Shown: piece by piece, positions 38,055 to 56,653 of the stretch | Numbering within the stretch: the first letter of the stretch is position 1 | How the letters are laid out: each line of letters begins with the position of its first letter | Assembly (NCBI GenBank): GCA_963693285.1 | Contig: OY848931.1 | Span: 3,149,644 to 3,213,643 of the forward strand | DNA: 64,000 nucleotides | From: Xestospongia muta | Taxonomy: Eukaryota > Porifera > Demospongiae > Haplosclerida > Petrosiidae | Direction of reading: 5' to 3' | Notes under the pieces: model-generated | What the model saw: the letters and a program-made list of their open reading frames with translations, nothing else | The model's database searches: none | What the model was told of the DNA's origin: nothing | Made by a program: the position numbers and the translations under genes

Positions 38055-39173
38055 ACGGGTAAAGGTGGCAGACTGAACGTCGCAATGAAGTCAAACGACT
38101 ATTGCTACCTCCACTGTCCTCGAGGTCGATCCTGGTCATAGACTAATACAACATCTCCAACGGATGGAGACTTTGGGTTTGGGTTATGTTTTGAAATTTG
38201 ATGACGGTGGCATTCTCTCAACTTAATTAAATACTCTGATTGCCATCTTTTCCAAAACTGGTTTAACAAATTGTCGAAGTAGGCCATTCTTTTATTTAGA
38301 TTAACTGACTGTACTGTTGTGTTGTAATCAAAATCTTCCGGGTAGTTACATGAGGGTAAGCTCAACAGCCTGTGTCCAACTAACAGGTGTGACGGAGTTA
38401 GTGGTTCTTGTAAATCGTTGGATGAGACAAATGAAAGTGGACAGCTGTTCAAAACCATTTCAATCTCAATTAAGGCTGTGAGGAGCTCATCATAAGACAA
38501 TGAGGAATTACTGAGGGTCTTCTTCAACAGATTTCACCATGCGCTCGAAGAAGCCACCCCACCAGGGAGCTCTTTCTAAATTAAACGTCCATTTAACCTG
38601 CTGATTATGGAAGTGTTCTTTCACTTCAGCACTAGCAAACATTCTTCGAATGATGGTAGTAGCTGCCTTAAATGTCCGACCGTTATCTGAAATTATCAAA
38701 TGAGGTAATCCTCGTCTGGAGCTGAATCTTCTGAAACTGTTTAGAAATGTTGTGGTATTGAGATCTCTTACAAGATCTAAGTGTACAGCCCTGACTATGG
38801 CACAAGTATAAAGACAGATCCATACCTTACTGGTCACACCAGATGTCTTAAACAATGGCCCTCCAAAGTCATCACCAACGACTGAGAATGGTTGACCTCT
38901 GTTCACTCTGAATACAGATATTGGAGGAGGAGGGGGTAGCTGGTAGTGAGGACCTTCTAATTTACGACAAATGAAGCAACGTTGAATTATCTTCTGAATT
39001 ACTGATTGTCCTTTGATGATCCAAAATCTTGATCTAAGTTGCGTTAATGTCTCCTTTACCCCATTGTGTTTCACTCTTTCATGACAGTCTATCACAATTA
39101 GTCTGCAGACTGGGTGTCCTGACTCTAATAGTATGGGGAACCTTGTGTCATGAGGTAAATCGGCATTCTCCAA
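38055..39173 (-). pseudogene. BEL/Pao integrase
   Basis: Shows an HHCC-type zinc region (H..H..FICRKLEG), a catalytic core with VVGDDFGGPLF, ISDNGRTF and an E-containing PWWGGFFERM, and the typical C-terminus VGDVVLVYDQDRPRGQW. LYPLEV follows in another frame, with the stop near 38038. There are two main frames (39173-38508 and 38527-38105). Confidence 0.85.
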
Positions 39174-39529
39174 CCTTCCTCTACATTGAATTAATCCATT
39201 ATCATCAAAAAACAGACCAAACTGTAACTTTCACAAACGATATTTTGGGTCAGATGTCAACGATGACTGGTAATCAAGTAGCCAAAGTCTTTCTGTTTCT
39301 ACCAGTGTTTCTTCATCAGATGGCAATCCTCCTTTGAGCCATTTCATGAACTTTAGCACATACATAGTTACTCGATAAAGCCTTGATAATGAACTGAACC
39401 TCTGGATCTTAACAACCATACACTTACATTGCCTACGACTTCTGTATCTCTGGTACCAGTCAACCAACTGGGTCCATTCCACCAAATCTTCTACGACCGT
39501 AATGACTCTAAACCGCTTCCCCTAGATGG

Positions 39530-40090
39530 AATATCTGCGGGGTTGTCTCCACTATGACAATATTTCCAACAATTGACTGGAACAAGTCTACGTATTTCTT
39601 GTATGCGATTTTCTACAAATTGCTTCCATTGTTTGGTGACACCCTTGATCTAACATAATGCTACTTGAGAGTCAGTATAACACATTGGTTCATCTAAGAC
39701 ATAACACATTGAGTCTAGCAAGTAGCAAACACGAAAGTAATTCTAATCTTGGAATGGTTTGGTTTGACAGTGGAGCTACTCTTGATTTGGCGGCAACAAA
39801 CTTTATCAAACCTCCACAGTCAGTCTCAATTAGTAAATAAATTACTGTGGCGTATGCCTTCGACGATGCATCACAGAAACCTCTCAAGGAGTATCTAATA
39901 ATGTTGGATTCAGTAGTAAGGTAACATCTATCTATAGTAACAGGTTCAGCACTTGAGAATCCAGTGATGACTTCTTTCCTACATTCCAATAACTCATTGG
40001 TAAGCACTTGATCCGAATGATCCCAGGATACACCTGATTTACAGAGCAACTGAAAGAATATCTTCAATTTAGCAGTCACTGGGCCCAGAA
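39530..40090 (-). pseudogene. BEL/Pao RT-connection/RNase H region
   Basis: The frame with PVTAKLKIFFQLLCKSG, LRGFCDASSKAYATVIYL and QTIPRLELLSCLLLARL is typical of the segment after the RT palm in BEL/Pao polyproteins. Its upstream half was separated by the hAT insertion and resumes at about 41730. Confidence 0.8.
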
Positions 40091-41735
40091 AGATCTGCTG
40101 CTGTGCAACAATCCATTGTCTCACACCTCCAGAAAACATCTGTAGTTTGTGTGACTGTCGGCCTGTGGACCAACCGACAACTTCGCAGTTATTTTGGAAT
40201 TACAGCTCACTTTATCACAAGTCCTGACTGGGATCTCAAGTCTGTCATGCTAGCTTGTTGTCGTTTCCAAGGATCACACACAGCCGATGCTATAATCAAG
40301 CAATTCCAAATAACCATCTCTGATTTTGATATTTCTTCTAAGCTAACTTTCATTGTAACAGACAGTGCATCCGACATGTTGAAAGCATTTCACTTCCAGG
40401 TTTTGAAATGATAGACCAAGGGATCTGTGAGAGTGATGAAAGTGACGACGATGAAAGTGACGACAGTGTTATCACAGAGGATGATGACAATGACACCTTG
40501 CAATTTTATGATGATCTTTCGAACATTAGTCAACATGTACCCTGCTTCGCTCATACAGTACGACTTATCATTAAGGATGGCTTCAAACAAGTGAATAGTA
40601 TTGCTAAAGTTCTTAAAAAGGCTTCATCAATAGTTTCATTTGTAAAGAAATCAAAAATAGCAGCTGATTTACTGGAATCAGAAAAGTGTTTGAGATCAGC
40701 GAACGCTACAAGGTGGAATTCTCAACTTCTAATGATAAGGTCTATTCTAAGAATTCCAGAGGAGAAACTCAATTAATTGGACACCACCGTTCACTTGTCA
40801 GCATATGAGCGTAACATTCTTGAAGATGTTGTGGAAATATTAACTCCTTTTGAAACTGCTACACACTGTATTCAAGGAGATAACGTTGTGACAAGTAGCA
40901 TGGTTGTTCCATGTGTACGTGTTTTAAAGAAGACATTCAAGTCATTGTCTGAAAAATTTTCAACAAGGTTTGTTGCTCAGCTATGCTCATCTATTGACAA
41001 GCAGTTGACTCGTTGTGAAGAATGTGATGCTTTCTTGACTGCTGCCACATTAAACCCTCGTTTTAAATTAAAATGGTGCACTAATGCAGAAGGCAGCATT
41101 TTGGAATCAAATTTAATTGATAAAGTTAAACAAGCCAATCCAAACTCATCTGAAGATGTGGCTGTAGTCAATATACTTGTAGCAACACCAAAAAAGAAAG
41201 AAAGTTTATCATTCTTTGACAGTTTAATGACCAATTCAAGTTCAGACTCTGTTAATCAACACTCATGTGACATTGATTCTATTGTCAAAAGATATCTATC
41301 TCAATCATGCTTGTCTCAAAATGAAAACCCTCTTGAATACTGGAAAAGTCATGCTGACAGCGAATTTGCATGTATATCAATAATAGCACTAAGGTACTTG
41401 TGCATTCCTGCCTCTTCTGCACCTGTAGAAAGAATCTTTAGCATTCCAGGCAAGGTTTTCCAACCAGAAAGGTGTCGCCTTAAAGATAAAACTTTTGAAC
41501 AACTCATGTTTATCAAGTGTAATTTAAATTGTCTTAAATAAATTCTTTGAAACAAAATAAGAACATTGTATTTTTAATTGTATTCAAATACAGAGAGGAG
41601 TATTTGTATTTGTATTTGAAATACAGACGTAAATGGGTATTTGTATTTGTATTTGTATTTAGCTCTTGTCAGGTATTTGTATTTGTATTTGTATTTGAAA
41701 TACTGAACCATGTATATGACCCCAAGTCTGCACTG
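40091..41735 (+). mobile_element. hAT (ZBED-type) transposon nested in the BEL element
   Basis: It splits the BEL reading frame exactly between GFISPV (right side) and PVTAKLKIF (left side). CACTGGG occurs at both junctions, a partial trace of the 8-base hAT target duplication. The right end contains short GTATTTGTATTTG repeats (41600-41700) typical of hAT subterminal DNA. The 5' part of the transposase, including the BED zinc finger, is missing. Confidence 0.75.
40145..41541 (+). pseudogene. hAT transposase, 5'-truncated, with frameshift and stop
   Basis: Frames show TVGLWTNRQLRSYFGITAHF and TDSASDMLKAF (RNase H-like core), then after a frame change near 40400 an acidic insert, CFAHTVRLIIKDGF and SANATRWNSQLLM. 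A TAA at 40774-40776 interrupts. The C-terminal dimerisation domain is complete (LEYWKSHADSEF, CIPASSAPVERIFS). It cannot be active. Confidence 0.85.
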
Positions 41736-42620
41736 GGGATATAAACCCCAATGGGTAATAAATCTTTGCTACCAGACGGACCATGTTCCGTTTCGTTGGC
41801 TCTAATTGTCGGGCTTGCTGAGTAATGTGTTTAAAATCCAATAAAATCTTGTCTGTGTCAGTGTTCCAAAGTACACCAAGGATTCGTTGTTCCTGATTGG
41901 AATCATTTCTTTCACTTTCAAACATAGATTTCGCATAGCTAACATCATCGGGAATAGTATCTGGACAAATGGTGGTTGGTGTAGTCTCATTAATTTCTTC
42001 AAAACGAATGCGAGAAGTTAATTCAAAAGAATTGCTTGTAAACTTCCTGAGTTTAAATCCTCCTTGCAGGAGTCTTGACCTAGACTACTCATACAACTTG
42101 TATGCATCCTCAGGATTTTCGGCACCAGATATGACGTCATCTACATACATTGATCTACTTAATTTTTTGACAAAAACTGGGTCTGACTCCTTATACTTGT
42201 TAAGATGATGACTTATAGTAGCGTTGAGTAGGAAGTGACTTGCCGTCACTCCAAATACTACTTGAGTAAAACGTAATGAAACAATTTTAGGTGTAGAACT
42301 GTTAATGTTATTGACCCAGAGGAATCGAAGTACATTCTGATCCTCTTCATCAATCCCAACTATCAAAAACGCCTTCTCTATGTTGGCTGAGAAAGCAACA
42401 CGATGAACTCTAAAACGAATGAGAATATTTATGATGTTTTGATCGAATTTTAGTCCCTTGTGTAGGCAGTTGTTAAGTGAAGTTCCATTTTTGCCCCTTG
42501 CAGATGCGTCATATACAAATCTTATTTTGGTAGTAGATTAGTCTGTACAAACAACAGCATGATGAGGTATGTAGTGGATTCGTCCTTGAATTTCTGACTC
42601 TGAAAATTTGACTAGTTCCA
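41730..42620 (-). pseudogene. BEL/Pao reverse transcriptase (N-terminal part)
   Basis: Contains IHYIPHHAVV, the IRFVYDAS..NG region, FLWVNN and the polymerase motif MYVDDVISGAE near 42140, then ILGVLWNTDTDKI and YYPLGFISPV just before the hAT insertion. Several frames are needed. Confidence 0.8.
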
Positions 42621-43095
42621 CAATTTTGTTGTGTACTTGTTCGTTGATGATGCTATCATACTCCTGAAGGAGTTTTGGAGTGTGACGCAAACTTTCAAAA
42701 GACTGGTGAGACAATTTTTACTCAATTCAAAGTTATCACACAGCTCACTACGCTCATCTTTCCAAGGTAATTTGACCTGGTAACGGTCATCCTTAAAGGT
42801 TATAGTGTCACAAAATTTTGATAAACTGATGATTCCTCACTAGTGATACCTAGTGACTCCAGATTCCAAAATTTATTTAATCCGAGTTCAATCAGACTAT
42901 TATCATCGTTGTCCACATAAAGTGTGTGGTTTGACTCCAGAGAAATAAAGTTCACAAACAAGCTTGGATCTTCCATGGGCCCCAACAACACCCAACCTAC
43001 TCTAGTTTCCATTGCAATGGGCCCAGCACTCCCCTGCTTCACTGCTCCTGTAAGTAATCTCCAATAATACTCGGATCCAACTAATAAGTCTAAAC

Positions 43096-44859
43096 CTAAA
43101 CAACCAGTGCCACAAGATGATTCGCCAAATCTAATCCTTGTAGGTGATCAAACTCTTCTTTGGCATAAGCCACTGGTTGGTGCAAAAGTGGTTCACAGAT
43201 TAACAGAACTACTAATAATGACAAGTGTAGGTCAGTGTTATCCTTTGTCTTTATTCCAATTCCAATTACATCACAGTTCTCACGTTTCCCCTTGTTACTA
43301 CCAAACGTCTTTATACTTAGAGCTTCAGTGTAGGTAGCTGATAATGACAAAGTGTTCTTGACATGGTCACTGGCATAGGAGCGTTGGCTACCACTGTCTA
43401 GAATTAACCTGACCCTCATGGTCAGGTCAGGATGGTCTGGATTATAGATGGTACACTAGCTGTTTGGAGAAATACAGGTGAATTATGTGTTGTTGATGAT
43501 GTGATGTCGTTTACACTGGTGGTTGATATAGGTGGTGAGTTACTGGGACGTGTCTGTGGGTGAATCATGGGCTCTCCTTGTGTACAAATACTGCCATGAT
43601 GTCGGCCTTTGCAGTGATAACACCTTCTTCCTGATCGACAGTTAACAGCAAGGTGACCCTTCCGAAGACAAATAAAACAACGTCCTGAGGATTTGAGTAC
43701 ATCCTTTCTAGCGTTAAGTGTGTTAAACTTCTTGCAGAACGATGGAATGTGGGACTCATTGCAGTAAACACAATTAGTACTAGGAGAGTTATCAGACATA
43801 AAGGTTGCTGTAGGGACAGACCTCTGATTTTGTGGTGTACAATGAACCGAGACTGTTTCTGATCTCTCTCTTGCACTGATTTCCATTTCTACAATTTGTA
43901 ACAGCATATCAAGTTCCCAATTCTCCCCTGTGACTGTCCAGCTGATGATTCATCGGAATTCCGGAGGTAATTTGTTCATCAGCACTGATGAAAGTAGACT
44001 CCCGTATGACGTTGCACTAATTCCGAGTGACTTGAGTCCTCTTACGTGTGATTCAACTGTATCATATAGTCGGCGTAAATTCTTGAGATTAGTGCTCAAA
44101 GTGACAGCATTTAACTGAAGAAATGCTTCCATGTGACGATTGATGATTTAACTGCTTGTTTCTGAACCTTTGCATTAAAATGTCAATCACTTCCTCGTAA
44201 TTAGAAGATGTTAGGGGTAGTCCCACAATTGCATCAGCAGCAGACCAATCCAGTAATGAATTCAGGTAATTAAACTTGTCTATATTTGACAGTGACGGAT
44301 TCTTGTGTACAGCTGATTCAAAGGACTCCCAGAAGGTAGTCCACATTGTTAAATCGCCATTAAAACATCTCAGGGTAAGTTTGGGAAGTTTAACTTGAGT
44401 GGGTTGTTCCGTATCTCCCGAAACAGTTGTGGAAGAAATAGTTGAAGGATCTTCAGTTCTGGGGTTAATTAATGTAGACTGTGTAGTCTCCCCGGTTGGT
44501 GTGGGTGACCTACTTGTTGTAGTTGATCTAGTTACTCTTACAGACTCTAGCAAAACCCTTTTCTTAGGTGATTCACATTTCGTCTTTATCCTTTCTAGCT
44601 CTAACATCTCCAGTTTGATTTTCTCTTGAATGGCGTCGGACTGTTCGATTTCCGCTTCCAACCCTTCATCTTCAGTTACTTCTAACAACTCACTATCGAG
44701 TCCTTTGAGTATCTCACTCTTCTCTTTCTTCTGCTTCAATTGTGTAACATCTGGACTATGCTCTTCTAACAGCTCGCTTATCTTCGATAAAAGTCGAGTT
44801 ACTACTGACCTATGAGCACTGCGCACCTTTTTCTTTCTTCCAATTTTGTCTGATAACAT
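43096..44859 (-). pseudogene. BEL/Pao Gag, zinc knuckles and aspartic protease
   Basis: Gag frame 44859-44089 starts with a basic region and coiled coil, then LPKLTLRCFNGDLTMWTTFW and the family's NSLLDWSAADAIVGLPLT. A second frame (43907-43422) has CVYC..H..C, CFICLRKGHLAVNC and CYHCKGRHHGSIC knuckles. A third (43419-43096) has the protease motif LILDSGSQRS. Three frames mean at least two breaks. Confidence 0.85.
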
Positions 44860-44957
44860 GACTGAAATCGACCACGTTCACGTGTCAGTTGAAATCCGTT
44901 TCAATCCTGCTAACAATTCGACTAACAGTTTCTCGACAGATCCGGTTCGGTGGACCA

Positions 44958-46999: not shown

Positions 47000-47437
47000 C
47001 ACGATTGTATAAAGTAGTTATCGAACCAGTAATGGCTATTATTAAAGGTGTCATATCCTTGGTTGGTTCTTCATCAATGAGGGGTGTGGTCTTCATGTAA
47101 TGCCCAACACTTTGAGCTTCTCTTCTTGCATGAGGTAATGAACCTAAAATCCATTCTTCACCTTTAAATTTAAATGGAGGTGTATATGGGTCACCAACAA
47201 TACATACGGTACGACAATCAGAAGAGATCTTAATAACAGTGGATGTGATCTGGGTCACCACTCCAAGTACAAGCAATGAAGGGGCAAATCGAAGAGTGCA
47301 AGTATCTCCAAAATATATTTCACTGTCACAATCACTGAGAGCTGGAAATGGTATCATTTTTGTACTTCTATCAGGAATAAGAATGATCTTTTTTGGAGGA
47401 CATTGGCTATCTGGAGTTATACCTTTAATATAGTATC
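47000..47437 (-). pseudogene. CHAT fragment with an internal inversion
   Basis: 47000-47048 reads forward as the CHAT linker RLYKVVIEPVMAIIKG. The next segment, 47049-47437, is the immediately following part of the CHAT gene (ITPDSQCPPKK to EEPTK) in reverse orientation. It equals an in-place inversion of about 390 bases in a CHAT copy otherwise lost. Sequence is nearly identical to 50356-50720, so the event is recent. Confidence 0.8.
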
Positions 47438-47635: not shown

Positions 47636-50600
47636 ATGAATTCACCAAAGGATGGAAAATCTTCAAAGGAACCTGAAAAGGCTGTTAAAGAAAGAATGTT
47701 ACAATTAAAACTAAAAGTATGTAATATATGATTATATTATATATAGTAAATGTATTGTTATTTTTACAGAACATAAAAAACAATTTAATGAAACAAAATG
47801 GGTTGATGGAACAAAACAATTCAATGGAAGTAATAAGAGAGACCTCGCATACTCCAAAAGATCCACAGAAACATAAATACTTTGAAACTGATATTACTAG
47901 AGGGAGTTTCGTCAAAATTCAAACACGCTCCGTTAAAGTGAAGACCTTGCATACTCTAGTACGTGAAGACTTTAAATCTGTTATTACTAGAAAGAGTTTA
48001 GTCAAACTTCAATCATGCTTTCATGCCTTGTATATGATGTATACTCTGTCATCATGTCATAGAGTTTTTTTACTTGCTCAAAAATGTGAACCTATTGGAA
48101 GTAATAAAATGAAGAAAACCAGCAACAAATCAGCAAAACCTCTCAAATTATTTCCAGATCTCTTTGAAGCACCACACATTTATGAAATGAATGTACCTCA
48201 AGAAATGGAGAAAACCCACAATGTACCTCAAGAAAAAGAAAAACCTACAGCTCTTGTGCCTAATGACAGCCACACCAATGAACTGGAGAAATCTGTAGCT
48301 TTTGTGCCTTATGACACCCATACCAATTTTCCTCAAGAAGAAGAGAAGCCTATTGTTCTTGTATCTGATGACAGCCACACCAATGAACAGGAGAAACCTC
48401 TGGCTCTTGTGTCTGATGACACTTGTAATGTTGCCAATGATAATCCAGATATTCAGGACTTATTGTGTCAGTCACAACTACTTCATGATGCGATGTATTA
48501 CACCGAGATGGAGAATTTGTTATCAGAATGTGTAAAGTTGTGTACTTTACCACAAGAAACTGCTCTGATATCATTTGGTATTGGTCTAGCATGTTTTGAG
48601 CAGAAGAAGTATGAAGAAGCTATTCAGTATTTTCAAGAGAGTGAAGAGAAATTACATGAGTGCTATCGGTATGATCCTGACCCCACCCACCTTAGTGACA
48701 TATCTTACTGTAGAGTATATATGGGAGAAGTAGAGAGTGCTCAGAGTCACTATTCTGCTGCTATTGAACACTTCCGTGAAGCAGTGAAGACACATCAATC
48801 ACAGATCCGAGATCAACCACAAAGCCCAGTTCTACATTTTCAGTTACCAGTACTCTCATTATCTGCTAAAATATCAAAACTTGCTTTAGCTCTTCATTGT
48901 GCTAATCAAGTAGCAGATTCTGAGAGATACTACAGGAAAGCTTTATTTTGTGATGATGCCACACCTTCTGATATCATATCTGCCAAAATTAGTCTTGGAA
49001 ACCTGTTACACAGTGTTGGAGATCACGAGAGAGCTGTTGAAGAATATGTTGTTGCTATTGAGAAAGCTGAAGTTGAAAATAATGCTCTATCTCAAGCTTG
49101 GACTCATGGTAACCTTGGTAATACATACCTCAGCCTTGGTAAGTGTGAGCAAGGTCTTTGTCATCTCCAGAAATCTCTTGAGCTTATAACGGTGTATGAG
49201 CCTACTCCACCAGCCATTAGTCAAGCCCTTAACAACCTTGGTAGAGCCTATCAAGCTCTGTCTAAGTTAGATGAAGCTAAAAGCTATTATGAAGAAGCTT
49301 TATCTCAAGCTATATATGGTAATGATTTGAATGGTCAAGTTAGGGCCTATGGTAACATAGGTAATCTTTACATGTTACAGAAGAATCAAGAGAGAGCTAT
49401 ACAACATTATACTGAAGTCTTAAGACTTAGTAAAGATCGCTCAACAGTTTATGTTGCTTATTACAATCGAGGTTGTGCATTCTTTGATCTTGCAGAAAAG
49501 AGAAAAAAAGAGCAATTTAATGATTGTCCAAGGAGAGAATATCAGTACATAGCCTGGGGTCCTAATACTAGTGACCTTGAATCAAAGCATTATCAAGACA
49601 AGTTAGAAAATGATATTGTCCAATTATACAAGCAGGGTCTCTCTGATTTTAAAAAGGTCATCAAAAATCATGAGAGTACTTTCTTTAATAGCAATTCATC
49701 AGTGAAAGGTCTCAATTTATTTGCATCTCTCTTTGAAGCTAATGCTACAACTTTTTCACGAGCTCAAGACTGTGCTTTTAATCTAAATGATCATCATCTT
49801 TCCCTGCTATTTGCTGAGCAATGTCGTTCTCGCACACTTGGAGAACTATTCTTACATCGAAAACTGCATCAGCTTAAAGTTCCATTCCAAGCTCCACTTA
49901 CTCTTGATCAAATGGTATCAATTTTACGTCTTCAAGATCCTTTTGTTCCTGTGGTGATGTTATCATACACAGGAACCCGTCTCCTAGTCTGGGTCTTAGT
50001 CTTTGATGGTAAAGAAGTATCGATGAATTTAATTGAGCAGGAGGCAAATGATGATCTATTTGAGGGCAAGTCCCTGGATATGTACCTTCATTATACCATC
50101 AACGAGCTGTTAACAGGTGATTTGGAGCTATATGGTGAAGAAAAGAAAGTTTCCAATAAAATTAAGGAAGATAAATCATCTATGTCTCTTGAGGAGGACA
50201 GTAATACATTAAGTGATAGTGAAGATGAGGCCAAAGAAACGAATGATGTTGACAAAGGCTTGCTTAAAGGTTTACCTGTTACTTCTCACTCTAATGATGA
50301 TATTTTAACACGATTGTATAAAGTAGTTATCGAACCAGTACAGGCTATTATTAAAGGTATAACTCCAGATAGCCAATGTCCTCCAAAAAAGATCATTCTT
50401 ATTCCTGATAGAAGTACAAAAATGATACCATTTCCAGCTCTCAGTGATTGTGACAGTGAAATATATTTTGGAGATACTTGCACTCTTCGATTTGCCCCTT
50501 CATTGCTTGTACTTGGAGTGGTGACCCAGATCACATCCACTGTTATTAAGATTTCTTCTAATTGTCGTACTGTATGTATTGTTGGTGACCCATATACACC

Positions 50601-53600
50601 TCCATTTAAATTTAAAGGTGAAGAATGGATTTTAGGTCCATTACCTCATGCAAGAAGAGAAGCTCAAAGTGTTGGGCATTACATGAAGACCACACCCCTC
50701 ATTGATGAAGAACCAACCAAGGAAGTTGTTTTATCTCAACTTCGTCAAGCCAAAGTCATCCATTTAGCCACGCATAGTTCAACTAGTCATGCTTTCATTG
50801 TTTTAGCTGGTACACGCTATGATATTCAGTCCACTATGGTACCAACCTGTTTTACAGAGAACAAAAATGATATCTTACTTTATGCTTCAGATGTGGAGTC
50901 TATCCAGTTACAACCATCACTTGTTGTATTAAGTTCTCATGACTCTGGTTGTGGAGTATTTAAAGATGGTGATGTTCAAGGAATGGCACTAGCATTTCTT
51001 TTGTCTGGAGCACAGGCAGTGCTAACATCATTGTGGAAAGTTCCTGATCAAAGTGGTTGTTATTTTATGCAGTATTTCTATCGATACATGTTAGATGGAT
51101 ATACTAGCAGTGAAGCATTACAAAAAGCTAGTCTCAGCATACGTGGTTGCCTAATGTTCTCGCAATATATCCACTGGGGAGGTTACCAGCTAACAGGGAA
51201 AGATGTCAGGATAGAAATTGAAGTTACACCTGAAGACAAGTCTGTATGGAGTAAACTAGGTCGAGGTTGTTCTCCTTTCCCTCATTTTGATAACCAATTG
51301 GCACTAGAGAATAACCTCTTATCACTTGACTCTCAATATATCCAGGTATTGTCACTATATTATATTATTATGTTATAATGTACACTTTTATATTATAGGT
51401 GATCAATGGTTCTGGTGGTGCAGATATATCTGAACAAGTCATTGATTTTATTGCCAAACATCATAGTTGTTTCAACTCTATATTTTGGTTAAATGCTAGT
51501 CATCCTCTTAATATTACTACCACTGTTAAGGATATAATGGAGGTAAGAATTTGTAACACAAAACTCTATTAGATATATTCATAGTAGAGAAAAGTGCAAG
51601 CTCAATTGAATTGTCATTATTGACATAGTTGTCACCAGTATAGAGTACATTCATCATGCTTAGCAAAACAAGACATGAATTTTAATGTAAAAACTTGTTG
51701 ATTGTATAGGAATATTTGCTAGCATATGATGTTTTTTGTGTTGTTTGCAGGTCCTCTCAGAACCTGCTTTAATAATTGTAGATGATGTCACAGTGGATTG
51801 TCTGCCACATCTTAAGCCTTTTTGTGAATGTTCTGATGTTAAAGTGATCTTACTAACATATTCTCCTATTGATGAAATGAGTTTACATATTGATTCAGTG
51901 TTACATAGAGGTACCTCTCAAATAATATCAGTATCACCTCTTACTAACCTACAAGTAACACAGAGATTAGTTTATACTTTGGTCCGTCAGTTTAACCTCA
52001 CTCCAAACAAGTCTGATCAACGAGTTATTTCTGAGCTCTCATCATTATGTTGTGGTTCCCCTGTAATATTATGTTTAATGGAGTCCTTGGTGACACACTG
52101 TATGACAAGAGGGAGTAATGGATTAACTATGTGTTTTAACCTAATAGAAGAGAAGATGGATGGAGTACTAATATCTCAAGTTGATATAGATGAGATTCAA
52201 GATAATATTGATAATCTTAACATCCGACCTTCATTAGTAATCTCCGGTATATTGGGTTGTCTGATGGATATTGGGAAAATTTCAACAGCTAGTCGAACTC
52301 TCCTAAACTGTTTATCGGCAATACGAGGAGTTCCTATACCTCTTGAGGTTATCACATGTATAAAACAGGAAATAGAGAGCAGTTGTACTATGACAACATC
52401 AATAATTGAGGAGCTACAACAATGTAACTGTTTATGTACATACCCTTCTCCTGTAATTAAGTCTTGTAATGATCCTTTGATCAATAGTAAATTATTTATT
52501 GTTCCTGACATAATTGGTGATGCAGTGTGGAATCATTTAACTACTGATGACGATTGTGTTATAGCAATTGCTGTTACAACTAAAACTTTAAACAAATTAT
52601 TACTTCAATGTGCAAATAATGAGCTTATATCTGCCTGCTATATTCCTGCAGTTGTGGATTCATTAAAACAATCTTGTGATACTCTACTGTTAAATAATCT
52701 TGTACAAAAAAATGAAGTAGACCATTTATATTATGGACAGTGCTATGCTGATGTTATAGTCTTAGAAGAACTTGTATATTACCTCATCCCATTGCCATCT
52801 GACAGCCATAGCAACATACAAAAGGAGATGCAGACTCCATCTAATGTGTCATCAGACAGTCATGTTAACATACTTCCATCTAACTTGTCATCAGACACCC
52901 ATGTCAATGTACCTCCATCTAATGTGTCATCAGACACCCATGTCAATGTACCTCCATCTAATGTGTCATCAGATACCCATGTCAATGTACCTCCATCTAA
53001 TGTGTCATCAGATACCCATGTCAATGTACCTCCATCTAATGTGTCATCAGATACCCATGTCAATGTACCTCCATCTAATGTGTCATCAGATACCCATGTC
53101 AATGTACCTCCATCTAATGTGTCATCTGACACCAATGTCAATATACCTCCATCTAATGTATCATCAGACACCCGTGTCAACGTACCTGATGACACTTGTA
53201 ATGTTGCCAACACTCAAGACTGTGCTTTTAATCTAAATGATCATCATCTTTCCCTGCTATTTGCTGAGCAATGTTGTTCTTGCACACTTGGAGAACTACT
53301 CTTACATCGAAAACTGCATCAGCTTAAAGTTCCATTCCGAACTCCACTTACTCTTGATCAAATGGTATCAATTTTACGTCTTCAAGATCCTTTTGTTCCT
53401 GTGGTGATGTTATCATACACAGGAACCCGTCTCCTAGTCTGGGTCTTAGTCTTTGATGGTAAAGAAGTATCGATGAATTTAATTGAGCAGGAGGCAAATG
53501 ATGATCTATTTGAGGGCAAGTCCCTGGATATGTACCTTCATTATAGCATTAACGAGCTGTTAACAGGTGATTTGGAGCTATATGGTGAAGAAAAGAAAGT

Positions 53601-56600
53601 TTCCAATAAAATTAAGGAAGATAAATCATCTATGTCTCTTGAGGAGGACAGTAATACATTAAGTGATAGTGAAGGGGAGGCCAAAGAAAAGAATGATGTT
53701 GACAAAGGCTTGCTTAAAGGTTTACCTGTTACTTCTCACTCTAATGATGATATTTTAACACGATTGTACAAAGTAGTTATCGAACCAGTAATGGCTATTA
53801 TTAAAGGTATAACTCCAGATAGCCAATGTCTTCCAAAAAAGATCATTCTTATTCCTGATAGAAGTACAAAAATGATACCATTTCCAGCTCTCAGTGATTG
53901 TGACAGTGAAATATATTTTGGAGATACTTGCACTCTTCGATTTGCCCCTTCATTGCTTGTACTTGGAGTGGTGACCCAGATCACATCCACTGTTATTAAG
54001 ATCTCTCCTAATTGTCGTACCGTATGTATTGTTGGTGACCCATATACACCTCCATTTAAATTTAAAGGTGAAGAATGGATTTTAGATCCATTACCTCATG
54101 CAAGAAGAGAAGCTCAAAGTGTTGGGCATTACATGAAGACCACACCCCTCATTGATGAGGAACCAACCAAGGAAGTTGTTGTATCTCAACTTCGTCAAGC
54201 CAAAGTCATCCATTTAGCCACGCATAGTTCAACTAGTCATGCTTTCATTGTTTTAGCTGGTACACGCTATGATATTCAGTCCTCTATGGTACCAACCTGT
54301 TTTACAGAGAACAAAAATGATATCTTACTTTATGCTTCAGATGTGGAGTCTATCCAGTTACAACCATCACTTGTTGTATTAAGTTCTCATGACTCTGGTT
54401 GTGGAGTATTTAAAGATGGTGATGTTCAAGGAATGCTACGAGCATTTCTTCTGTCTGGAGCACAGGCAGTGCTAACATCATTGTGGAAAGTTCCTGATCA
54501 AAGTGGTTGTTATTTTATGCAGTATTTCTATCGATACATGTTAGATGGATATACTAGCAGTGAAGCATTACAAAAAGCTAGTCTCAGCATACGTGGTTGC
54601 CTAATGTTCTCGCAATATATCCACTGGGGAGGTTACCAGCTAACAGGGAATGATGTCAGGATAGAAATTGAAGTTACACCTGAAGACAAGTCTGTATGGA
54701 GTAAACTAGGTCGAGGTTGTTCTCCTTTCCCTCATCTTGTTAACCTATTGGTACTAGAGAATAACCTCTTATCACTTGACTCTCAATATATTCAGGTATT
54801 GTCACTTTATATTATTTACTATTATGTTATAATGTACACTTTTATATTATAGGTGATCAATGGTTCTGGTGGTGCAGATATATCTGAACAAGTCATTGAT
54901 TTTATTGCCAAACATCATAGTTGCTTCAACTCTATATTTTGGTTAAATGCTAGTCATCCTCTTAATATTGCTACCACTGTTAAGGATATAATGGAGGTGA
55001 GAATTTGTAACACAAAACTCTATTAGATATATTCATAGTAGAGAAAAGTGCAAGCTCAATTGAATTGTTATTATTGACATAGTTGTCACCAGTATAGAGT
55101 ACATTCATGCTTAGCAAAACAAGACATGAATTTTAATGTAAAAACTTGTTGATTGTATAGGAATATTTGCTAGCATATGATGTTTTTTGTGTTGTTTGCA
55201 GGTCCTCTCAGAACCTGCTTTAATAATTGTAGATGATGTCACAGTGGATTGTCTGCCACATCTTAAGCCTTTTTGTGAATGTTCTGATGTTAAAATGATC
55301 TTACTAACATATTCTCCTACTGATGAAATGAGTTTACATATTGATTCAGTGTTACATAGAGGTACCTCTCAAATAATATCAGTATCACCTCTTACTAACC
55401 TACAAGTAACACAGAGATTAGTTTATACTTTGGTCCGTCAGTTTAACCTCACTCCAAACAAGTCTGATCAACGAATTATTTCTGACCTCTCATCACTATG
55501 TTGTGGTTTTCCTGTAATATTACGTCTAATGGAGTCCTTGGTGACACACTATATGACAAGAGAGAGTGATGGATTAACTATGTGTTTTAACCTAATAGAA
55601 GAGAAGATGGATGGAGGACTAATATCTCAAGTTGATGTAGATGAGATTCAAGATAATATTGATAATCTTAACATCCGACCTTCATTAGTAATTTCCAGTA
55701 TATTGGGTTGTCTGATGGATATTGGGAAAATTTCAACAGCTAGTCGAACTCTCCTAAACTGTTTATCAACAATACGAGGAATTCCTATACCTCTTGAGGT
55801 TATCACATGTATAAAACAGGAAATAGAGAGCAGTTGTACTATGACAACATCAATAATTGAGGAGCTACAACGATGTAACTGTTTATGTACATACCCTTCT
55901 CCTGTAATTAAGTCTTGTAATGATCCTTTGATCAATAGTAAATTATTCATTGTTCCTGACATAATTGGTGATGCAGTCTTGAATCACTTGACCAGCCATG
56001 AAGATCATATAATGGCTATTGGCATGAGAAATAAAGTGTTAAGTGATGGATCTCAAGTTCGTCGTTTTTTTTTAGGTCAAGTATTCTTGTTAAAGGAGAG
56101 TTGTAGTTGTCGTCTAGAGGAATCTGTGTCTGTGAAAGTGTGCTATTGTTTTCAAAACATAGGAAAAATGTGGTCCTGTTCTTCAAGTAAGGAAAAAAAT
56201 GAAAGCTACCAAACTAGGCCGATTGATGAGAGTCTCCTTTTTTCAGGTAAGCATTTGAATTGTTATCCACCATTCATTTTACTCATTGCTAAATTGAATC
56301 CCATGCTTTTGTCAAGCCATTACAATGTGTAGCTTTACTTATTTGTTATTGTCTATTTCTTAGGTATTTCTTTTGATCAGGATGCTTTACTTGACCTATT
56401 AGTTGATATTGACAGCAAATGGTATGAAATAGGGTTGTCTTTAAAACTTAAGCGCAATTTTTTGGATGGTTTATGTGATGAACGAATAAGCAACACTGTC
56501 AGACTATCTCGCATAATTGACAAATGGATAACTAGCATTGATCCACAGGACCCATGGAATACAGTAATCTCTGCTATTGAAGGGCGTATTGTTGGTAATA

Positions 56601-56653
56601 AAGAGAAAGGTCGGAAAATACGTGATTACCTCACTGATCAACTTAAAAATTGA
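47636..56653 (+). CDS. giant TPR-CHAT-NB-CHAT-NB-Death protein
   Basis: Seven exons in one frame: 47636-47716, 47770-51345, 51399-51542, 51751-54795, 54853-54996, 55202-56246, 56364-56653; about 2774 residues. Order: low-complexity N-terminus (28-260), about eight TPRs (289-605, e.g. SLGNLLHSVGDHERAVEEYV), CHAT 1 (about 694-1175), an NB-ARC-like unit (1220-1500: NGSGGADIS, FWLNAS, ALIIVDDV, ILLTYS), a 39-base-repeat linker, CHAT 2 (about 1755-2230) without TPRs, a second NB-like unit (2283-2600), and a Death-fold domain (about 2685-2774). Both CHAT units keep HLATH, but the LSACxTG cysteine is His (LSSHDSG). The Walker A Lys is absent. A cytosolic immune or cell-death scaffold is inferred. 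It could be two genes, but no promoter or stop separates the units. Confidence 0.82.
52840..53187 (+). repeat. 39-bp coding minisatellite in the CHAT gene
   Basis: Nine in-frame units of 39 bases (starts 52840, 52879, 52918 and so on to 53152) encode SNVSSDTHVNVPP with few changes. The inner five are nearly identical. It forms a hydrophilic linker between NB unit 1 and CHAT unit 2. The antisense and +1 open frames here are shadows. Confidence 0.92.

Follow-up and report, generated by a model that had tools for sequence, protein, structure and literature searches.

Whether a gene that carries two CHAT domains and two nucleotide-binding (NB) modules in a single reading frame encodes a working caspase-like protease with a nucleotide switch is the question raised by a locus of the sponge Xestospongia muta. 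The gene lies in a 64,000-nucleotide stretch (hereafter, the window) of contig OY848931.1 (GenBank assembly GCA_963693285.1, positions 3,149,644 to 3,213,643 of the forward strand), for which a preliminary description proposed such a protein, with the domain order TPR-CHAT-NB-CHAT-NB-Death. A working protease with a nucleotide switch is not supported by the active-site motifs: neither CHAT copy has the catalytic Cys and the P-loop is degenerate in every readable family sequence, and a double protease is a less likely product than a scaffold without enzyme activity or a duplicate in decay.

The catalytic sites of near relatives in the protein database mostly read HLATHGSA and LSSCDSGRG, compared to HLATHSST and LSSHDSGCG in both window copies. 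Across P0002-P0027, the top 26 of 120 listed homologs out of the 197 found, the Cys site is readable in 24, with Cys in 23 and Ser in P0024 (P0025 and P0027 being unreadable); the C9 paralog has the codon TGT where both window copies carry CAT, and in a motif scan of the host genome (158 Mb, 28 contigs), readable at 5 of 12 CHAT loci, the two window copies have His and the three others Cys. Conservation of the motif, rather than a solved structure for the family, is the ground for taking the aligned Cys as catalytic; a search of the PDB with the sequence of CHAT copy 1 found no CHAT structure. Because His and Cys form the catalytic pair of bacterial TPR-CHAT proteins, in which the double mutation abolishes cleavage (PMC9729208, PMC10028731), and the Cys is lost here, both window CHAT domains are most likely pseudo-proteases. 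That they remain proteases by means of another nucleophile, be it His or the Cys gained four positions further along, in SSHDSGC, is extremely improbable: the Arg-to-Cys change that created the latter is common to both copies, but the bacterial double mutants argue against such a rescue, as does a Gly-to-Ser change at the residue following the His. Separately, the Ser of P0024 suggests that catalytic loss in the CHAT family may have happened more than once.

As for the nucleotide switch, the Walker A motif GxxxxGK[ST] has no match in either copy, where the corresponding stretch reads GSGGADIS, and is absent in 7/7 readable family sequences; a Walker B motif of the form hhhhD[DE] is represented by ALIIVDD in both copies (by eye, in the alignment). 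Structure comparison of the predicted NB model recovers an NB-ARC fold with winged helix, the identification as Apaf-1-like being carried by a VIA-align comparison; Foldseek with the same model returned nothing at E<=0.001, its two best rows being plant NRC3 chains, and an NB alignment profile found no match among PDB sequences. The comparison of the model supports an Apaf-1-like assignment of the NB module.

A Pfam scan of exons 2, 3, 4, 6 and 7 recognised TPR families, up to 2.2e-28, and both CHAT domains; exons 3, 6 and 7 matched no family at E<=1. No NACHT, LRR, CARD or WD40 match was obtained at E<=1 in the scanned exons, so that the NACHT and LRR components of an NLR were not recovered. 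PADLOC on exons 2, 4, 6 and 7 returned TPR matches only, and NCBIfam on exon 2, NB copy 1 and the last exon matched only the TPR part, always below curated cut-offs. The domain order first proposed stands with two labels corrected: TPR and CHAT rest on Pfam, the Apaf-1-like NB label comes solely through the structure comparison of the model, and the Death label is only transitive.

The seven-exon structure itself is borne out, as exons with GT..AG borders join into 2774 codons with no stop. For intron 1, two donors were tried and one kept the frame; stop-to-stop frames of 1217, 1040 and 383 codons hold most of the gene. A start similar to exon 1 is also visible by eye downstream of the C9 paralog, which has a single cassette (L014, C9:113500-122500), which hints at a further tandem member there.

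The doubling of the CHAT-NB cassette, likewise part of the preliminary description, is far beyond chance: the copies differ by 40 amino acids over 841 aligned codons, and their introns are alike too. The second copy is preceded by an in-frame 39-bp minisatellite, for which no second place in the genome was found in a search that passes over simple repeats. Because this repeat ends, directly 5' of CHAT, in a 25-nt sequence that also closes the N-terminal linker, cassette 2 looks like a second whole gene without its TPR part. At the 3' border of the cassettes, identity drops at a single point from 99/100 bases before to 42/70 after, a residual tail match reached by 0/10000 shuffles and 0/1517 same-offset controls, and the C9 paralog shares 58/70 bases with tail 1 and 45/70 with tail 2. 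Since the tails have diverged to 42/70 and tail 1 is nearer to the C9 paralog than to tail 2, the duplication seems to be old and its CHAT-NB part recently homogenised, most simply, it would seem, by gene conversion; the idea that the tandem duplication is fresh was dropped on the same evidence. The best account of the cassette pair is a tandem fusion of genes that underwent homogenisation recently.

The same borders bear on the very improbable reading that two haplotypes or alleles were set in tandem by the assembly. The cassettes are 2-3% apart, within reach of allelic variation, but the flanks of the copies differ on both sides, the tails past the border are old because only 42/70 bases are common beyond it, the window has an N count of 0, and the same linker and tail end are carried elsewhere by P0121; the differing flanks and tails were the reason to discard an artefact.

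P0121, a relative on another contig, contains in one frame an NB tail, both linker types (one of the same kind as the window's N-terminal linker), part of the TPRs and a tail end like ENESYQTRPI, which matches the tail preceding the last exon at E 7e-6 to 9e-6. It kept the TPRs of the second copy and has no CHAT-NB of that copy there, the reverse of the window. A search with the window's second tail found no other place for it in the genome. With the whole of exon 4 as query, for the NB-linker-CHAT arrangement, 7987 candidates were scored and 4 proteins matched, namely P0001, which is the window's own, P0121 over 16% of the query, and two CHAT proteins that are distant. On other contigs, P0007 appears by eye to carry linker units that repeat every 19 residues or so, together with a truncated second start of the TPRs, and P0027 two TPR blocks.

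It is improbable that the locus is read as two transcripts, one from a TPR-CHAT-NB gene that stops close to the repeat linker and one from a separate CHAT-NB-Death gene whose start lies within exon 4. Such a split would fit a TAG stop that the C9 paralog has about where the window frame continues, an in-frame ATG at 52828 and one ATTAAA at 52662; exon 4, however, is open in one frame through the junction, the plus strand has no AATAAA between 50155 and 53605, and NB tail and TPR share a single frame in P0121.

The last exon has no Pfam match even at E<=10, and its label comes from its relatives, of which the genome holds at least 149 elsewhere (150 matches including itself, with 150 of 1467 candidates scored). 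At E<=1, PF00531 (Death) recognises 8 of the 19 members that were aligned, the best at 1.2e-4 and the window exon not among them, while each of 15 other Pfam families matches between one and four. Compared with the PDB, a profile built from the 19 members retrieved 11 chains at E-values of 0.16-0.93, ten of FADD and one of THOC1 (1wxp, which we take to be the THOC1 death domain); a single-sequence structure model of the exon was too poor for use. Pyrimidine-rich acceptor candidates are all of phase 1 in 17/19 relatives, matching the window exon, and none was seen in the remaining two, a near-identical pair. Judged from sequence, the last exon is likely a Death-like domain spread by exon shuffling. 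The genome thus appears to hold Death-like exons, each about 95 residues long, as a very large family that Pfam recognises in part, and one relative of the last exon (L050) has NACHT frames nearby on the same strand.

Is the fused frame maintained? Copy 1 and copy 2 are separated by 42.5 nonsynonymous and 19.5 synonymous changes, a ratio of nonsynonymous to synonymous rates (dN/dS) of 0.62, with a borderline synonymous excess (P 0.046-0.080). The C9 paralog is 82% identical to the exon 2 product over residues 202-1192, and its pairwise dN/dS with the window copies is 0.30-0.52 by region; the stem of the window copies is 0.13 long, against 0.036-0.075 in sister rows. About 4.2% of random substitutions would give a stop, and because the probability of remaining stop-free by chance is 0.07 for the 62 substitutions since homogenisation and about 6e-5 for an assumed 230, the frame was probably under constraint for most of its history, recent constraint being weak or unproven.

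These values bring in the main rival, a decaying or neutral chimaera, the birth-and-death product of a labile family, perhaps transcribed and of no selected function, which is a serious if rather doubtful possibility. It would account for the dN/dS of 0.62 with introns diverging similarly, the long stem branch, the loss of the catalytic Cys, the 375-bp inverted fragment of the gene that adjoins it, an apparent frame break in a relative, the partial internal duplications seen by eye in P0007 and P0027, and cassettes whose lack of stops could by themselves be due to chance (P 0.07). Against it stand 2774 codons without stop or frame break, the lower dN/dS towards the C9 paralog, and a linker that is in frame both in the window gene and in P0121.

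Tentatively, and with a little less than even confidence, we favour the view that the fused gene is a lineage-specific member of a sponge TPR-CHAT-NB-ARC family, acting as a pseudo-enzyme scaffold or dominant-negative regulator. Two tandem gene copies would have merged into one frame, the TPRs of the second would have disappeared, and homogenisation of the two CHAT-NB parts would have come later. The protein would descend from an active TPR-CHAT protein of the kind seen in the C9 paralog and would act without proteolysis or ATP hydrolysis: its TPR arm may bind a partner or trigger, its paired pseudo-CHAT/NB-ARC modules may oligomerise or, as a decoy, bind substrates or active paralogs, and its Death-like tail may recruit other Death-domain proteins of the sponge. 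A more specific version, in which an active TPR-CHAT-NB-ARC protein became a covalent double pseudo-enzyme with a Death-like tail, its modules kept alike by gene conversion and serving as a non-proteolytic regulator of Death-domain signalling, is unlikely, though not negligibly so. Under this double pseudo-enzyme reading, and given that another remnant of the fusion is found in a relative, immune or allorecognition diversity would be evolving rapidly at the locus; the immune role of the fused protein is putative.

The coordinates of the features discussed are collected in Table 1.

Table 1. Features of the fused gene and its upstream flank, in window coordinates.
Feature	Coordinates	Strand	Basis or remark
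Exon 1: start codon and 27 residues	47636..47716	+	spliced model
Exon 2: N-terminal linker, TPRs, CHAT copy 1	47770..51345	+	open frame, Pfam
N-terminal repeat-rich linker, VPQEMEKT / SDDSHTN units	48190..48449	+	tandem-repeat analysis
TPR region, approximate borders	48460..49506	+	Pfam TPR families, exon-2 residues about 231-579
Exon 3: degenerate P-loop, GSGGADIS	51399..51542	+	no GK[ST]
Exon 4: remainder of NB copy 1, ancestral tail, 13-residue repeat linker, CHAT copy 2	51751..54795	+	single open frame
Exon 5: degenerate P-loop of copy 2	54853..54996	+	motif reading
Exon 6: NB copy 2 and divergent tail	55202..56246	+	high identity to copy 1 stops at about 55977
Exon 7: putative Death-like domain, phase-1 entry	56364..56653	+	stop at 56651-56653
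CHAT copy 1 (putative pseudo-CHAT)	50302..51198	+	PF12770 1e-39, 3-288 of 289
Retained His of HLATH, CHAT copy 1, residue 1029	50773..50775	+	
CAT (His) at relatives' presumed catalytic Cys site, CHAT copy 1, residue 1084	50938..50940	+	
CHAT copy 2 (putative pseudo-CHAT)	53752..54651	+	PF12770 1.8e-39
Retained His of HLATH, CHAT copy 2, residue 2092	54223..54225	+	
CAT (His) at Cys site, CHAT copy 2, residue 2147	54388..54390	+	
Predicted Apaf-1-like NB module copy 1 without P-loop exon, with helical tail to end of C9 paralog match	51751..52776	+	
Cassette 1, apparently homogenised	49763..52526	+	about 97-98% identical to 53213-55977, introns included
Cassette 2, apparently homogenised	53213..55977	+	partner of 49763-52526
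In-frame 39-bp minisatellite, 9.1 copies, 13-residue units PPSNVSSDTHVNV	52835..53187	+	tandem-repeat analysis
Putative fusion junction: 25 nt identical to N-terminal linker end (48413-48437)	53186..53210	+	
Tail before Death-like exon	55978..56246	+	tail end matched in P0121
Inverted 375-bp fragment of CHAT coding sequence	47056..47430	-	99% and 98% complementary to the two copies

The inverted fragment lies immediately 5' of the gene, and a transcript running across it could pair with RNA from the gene. Farther upstream, window positions 38511-44877 hold pieces of a Pao/BEL-type retroelement on the minus strand, with an integrase zinc-binding domain, a Pao peptidase, and weak reverse transcriptase and DUF1759 matches, all in separate frames; between these pieces, on the opposite (plus) strand, lies a hAT transposase dimerisation domain (7.7e-19, 40777-41538).

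Where does such a protein belong among known systems? With a TPR array followed by CHAT, it has the arrangement of TTC28-like TPR-CHAT proteins, and among the 120 listed of 197 homologs its nearest named relatives are Amphimedon P0022 (TTC28-like) and P0023 (CHAT domain-containing), at about 50% identity. TPR-CHAT genes are known in many animals, with one or two in most species outside anthozoans (PMC12314368); the genome studied here gives 19 CHAT matches, some partial, or 16 groups when pooled within 8 kb. The proteins of the coral expansions share the order of TPR then CHAT and are described with a single CHAT (PMC12314368). In the window gene, unlike in the TTC28 type, CHAT precedes an NB-ARC-like module, is doubled, has no catalytic Cys and is followed by a Death-like exon; an NB profile found no NB module in the fish TTC28 protein P0028 (hhalign probability 0.1, percent scale). 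Fungi already provide a known case of CHAT combined with an NLR (PMC10197012), where the two share a polypeptide and TPR-bearing CHAT proteases occur in the same setting (PMC10197012, PMC12881547); there the protease is described as the N-terminal NLR module and the TPR-bearing CHAT protease as activating a gasdermin, whereas the window CHAT is catalytically degenerate and has TPRs on one side and an NB module lacking the P-loop on the other. Relative to the NB-ARC of Apaf-1 and CED-4, the window NB has no Walker A GK[ST] and comes without a CARD or WD40 match. The bacterial TPR-CHAT protein Csx29 (Craspase) likewise combines TPR and CHAT, but keeps its His-Cys pair (H585/C627 or H615/C658, depending on the paper) and partners Cas7-11. 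A further comparison is iSTAND (PMC8195603), by description a STAND-like module predicted to be inactive in a death or immunity context, although bacterial and composed of predicted nucleic-acid receptors. No description of the doubled, Death-tailed form was found in the open-licence papers searched; of its parts, CHAT-NLR is known in fungi (PMC10197012) and TPR-CHAT in animals (PMC12314368).

In summary, an Apaf-1-like NB module is indicated behind CHAT in sponge TTC28-type proteins, an arrangement of which no description was found in the same papers, and the window gene unites cell-death parts of three kinds within a single animal protein. Its features suggest a route of origin through tandem fusion, an in-frame repeat linker, a homogenised double, phase-1 entry of a Death-like exon and loss of catalysis and, if functional, the gene would be a natural test of the roles of CHAT without proteolysis.

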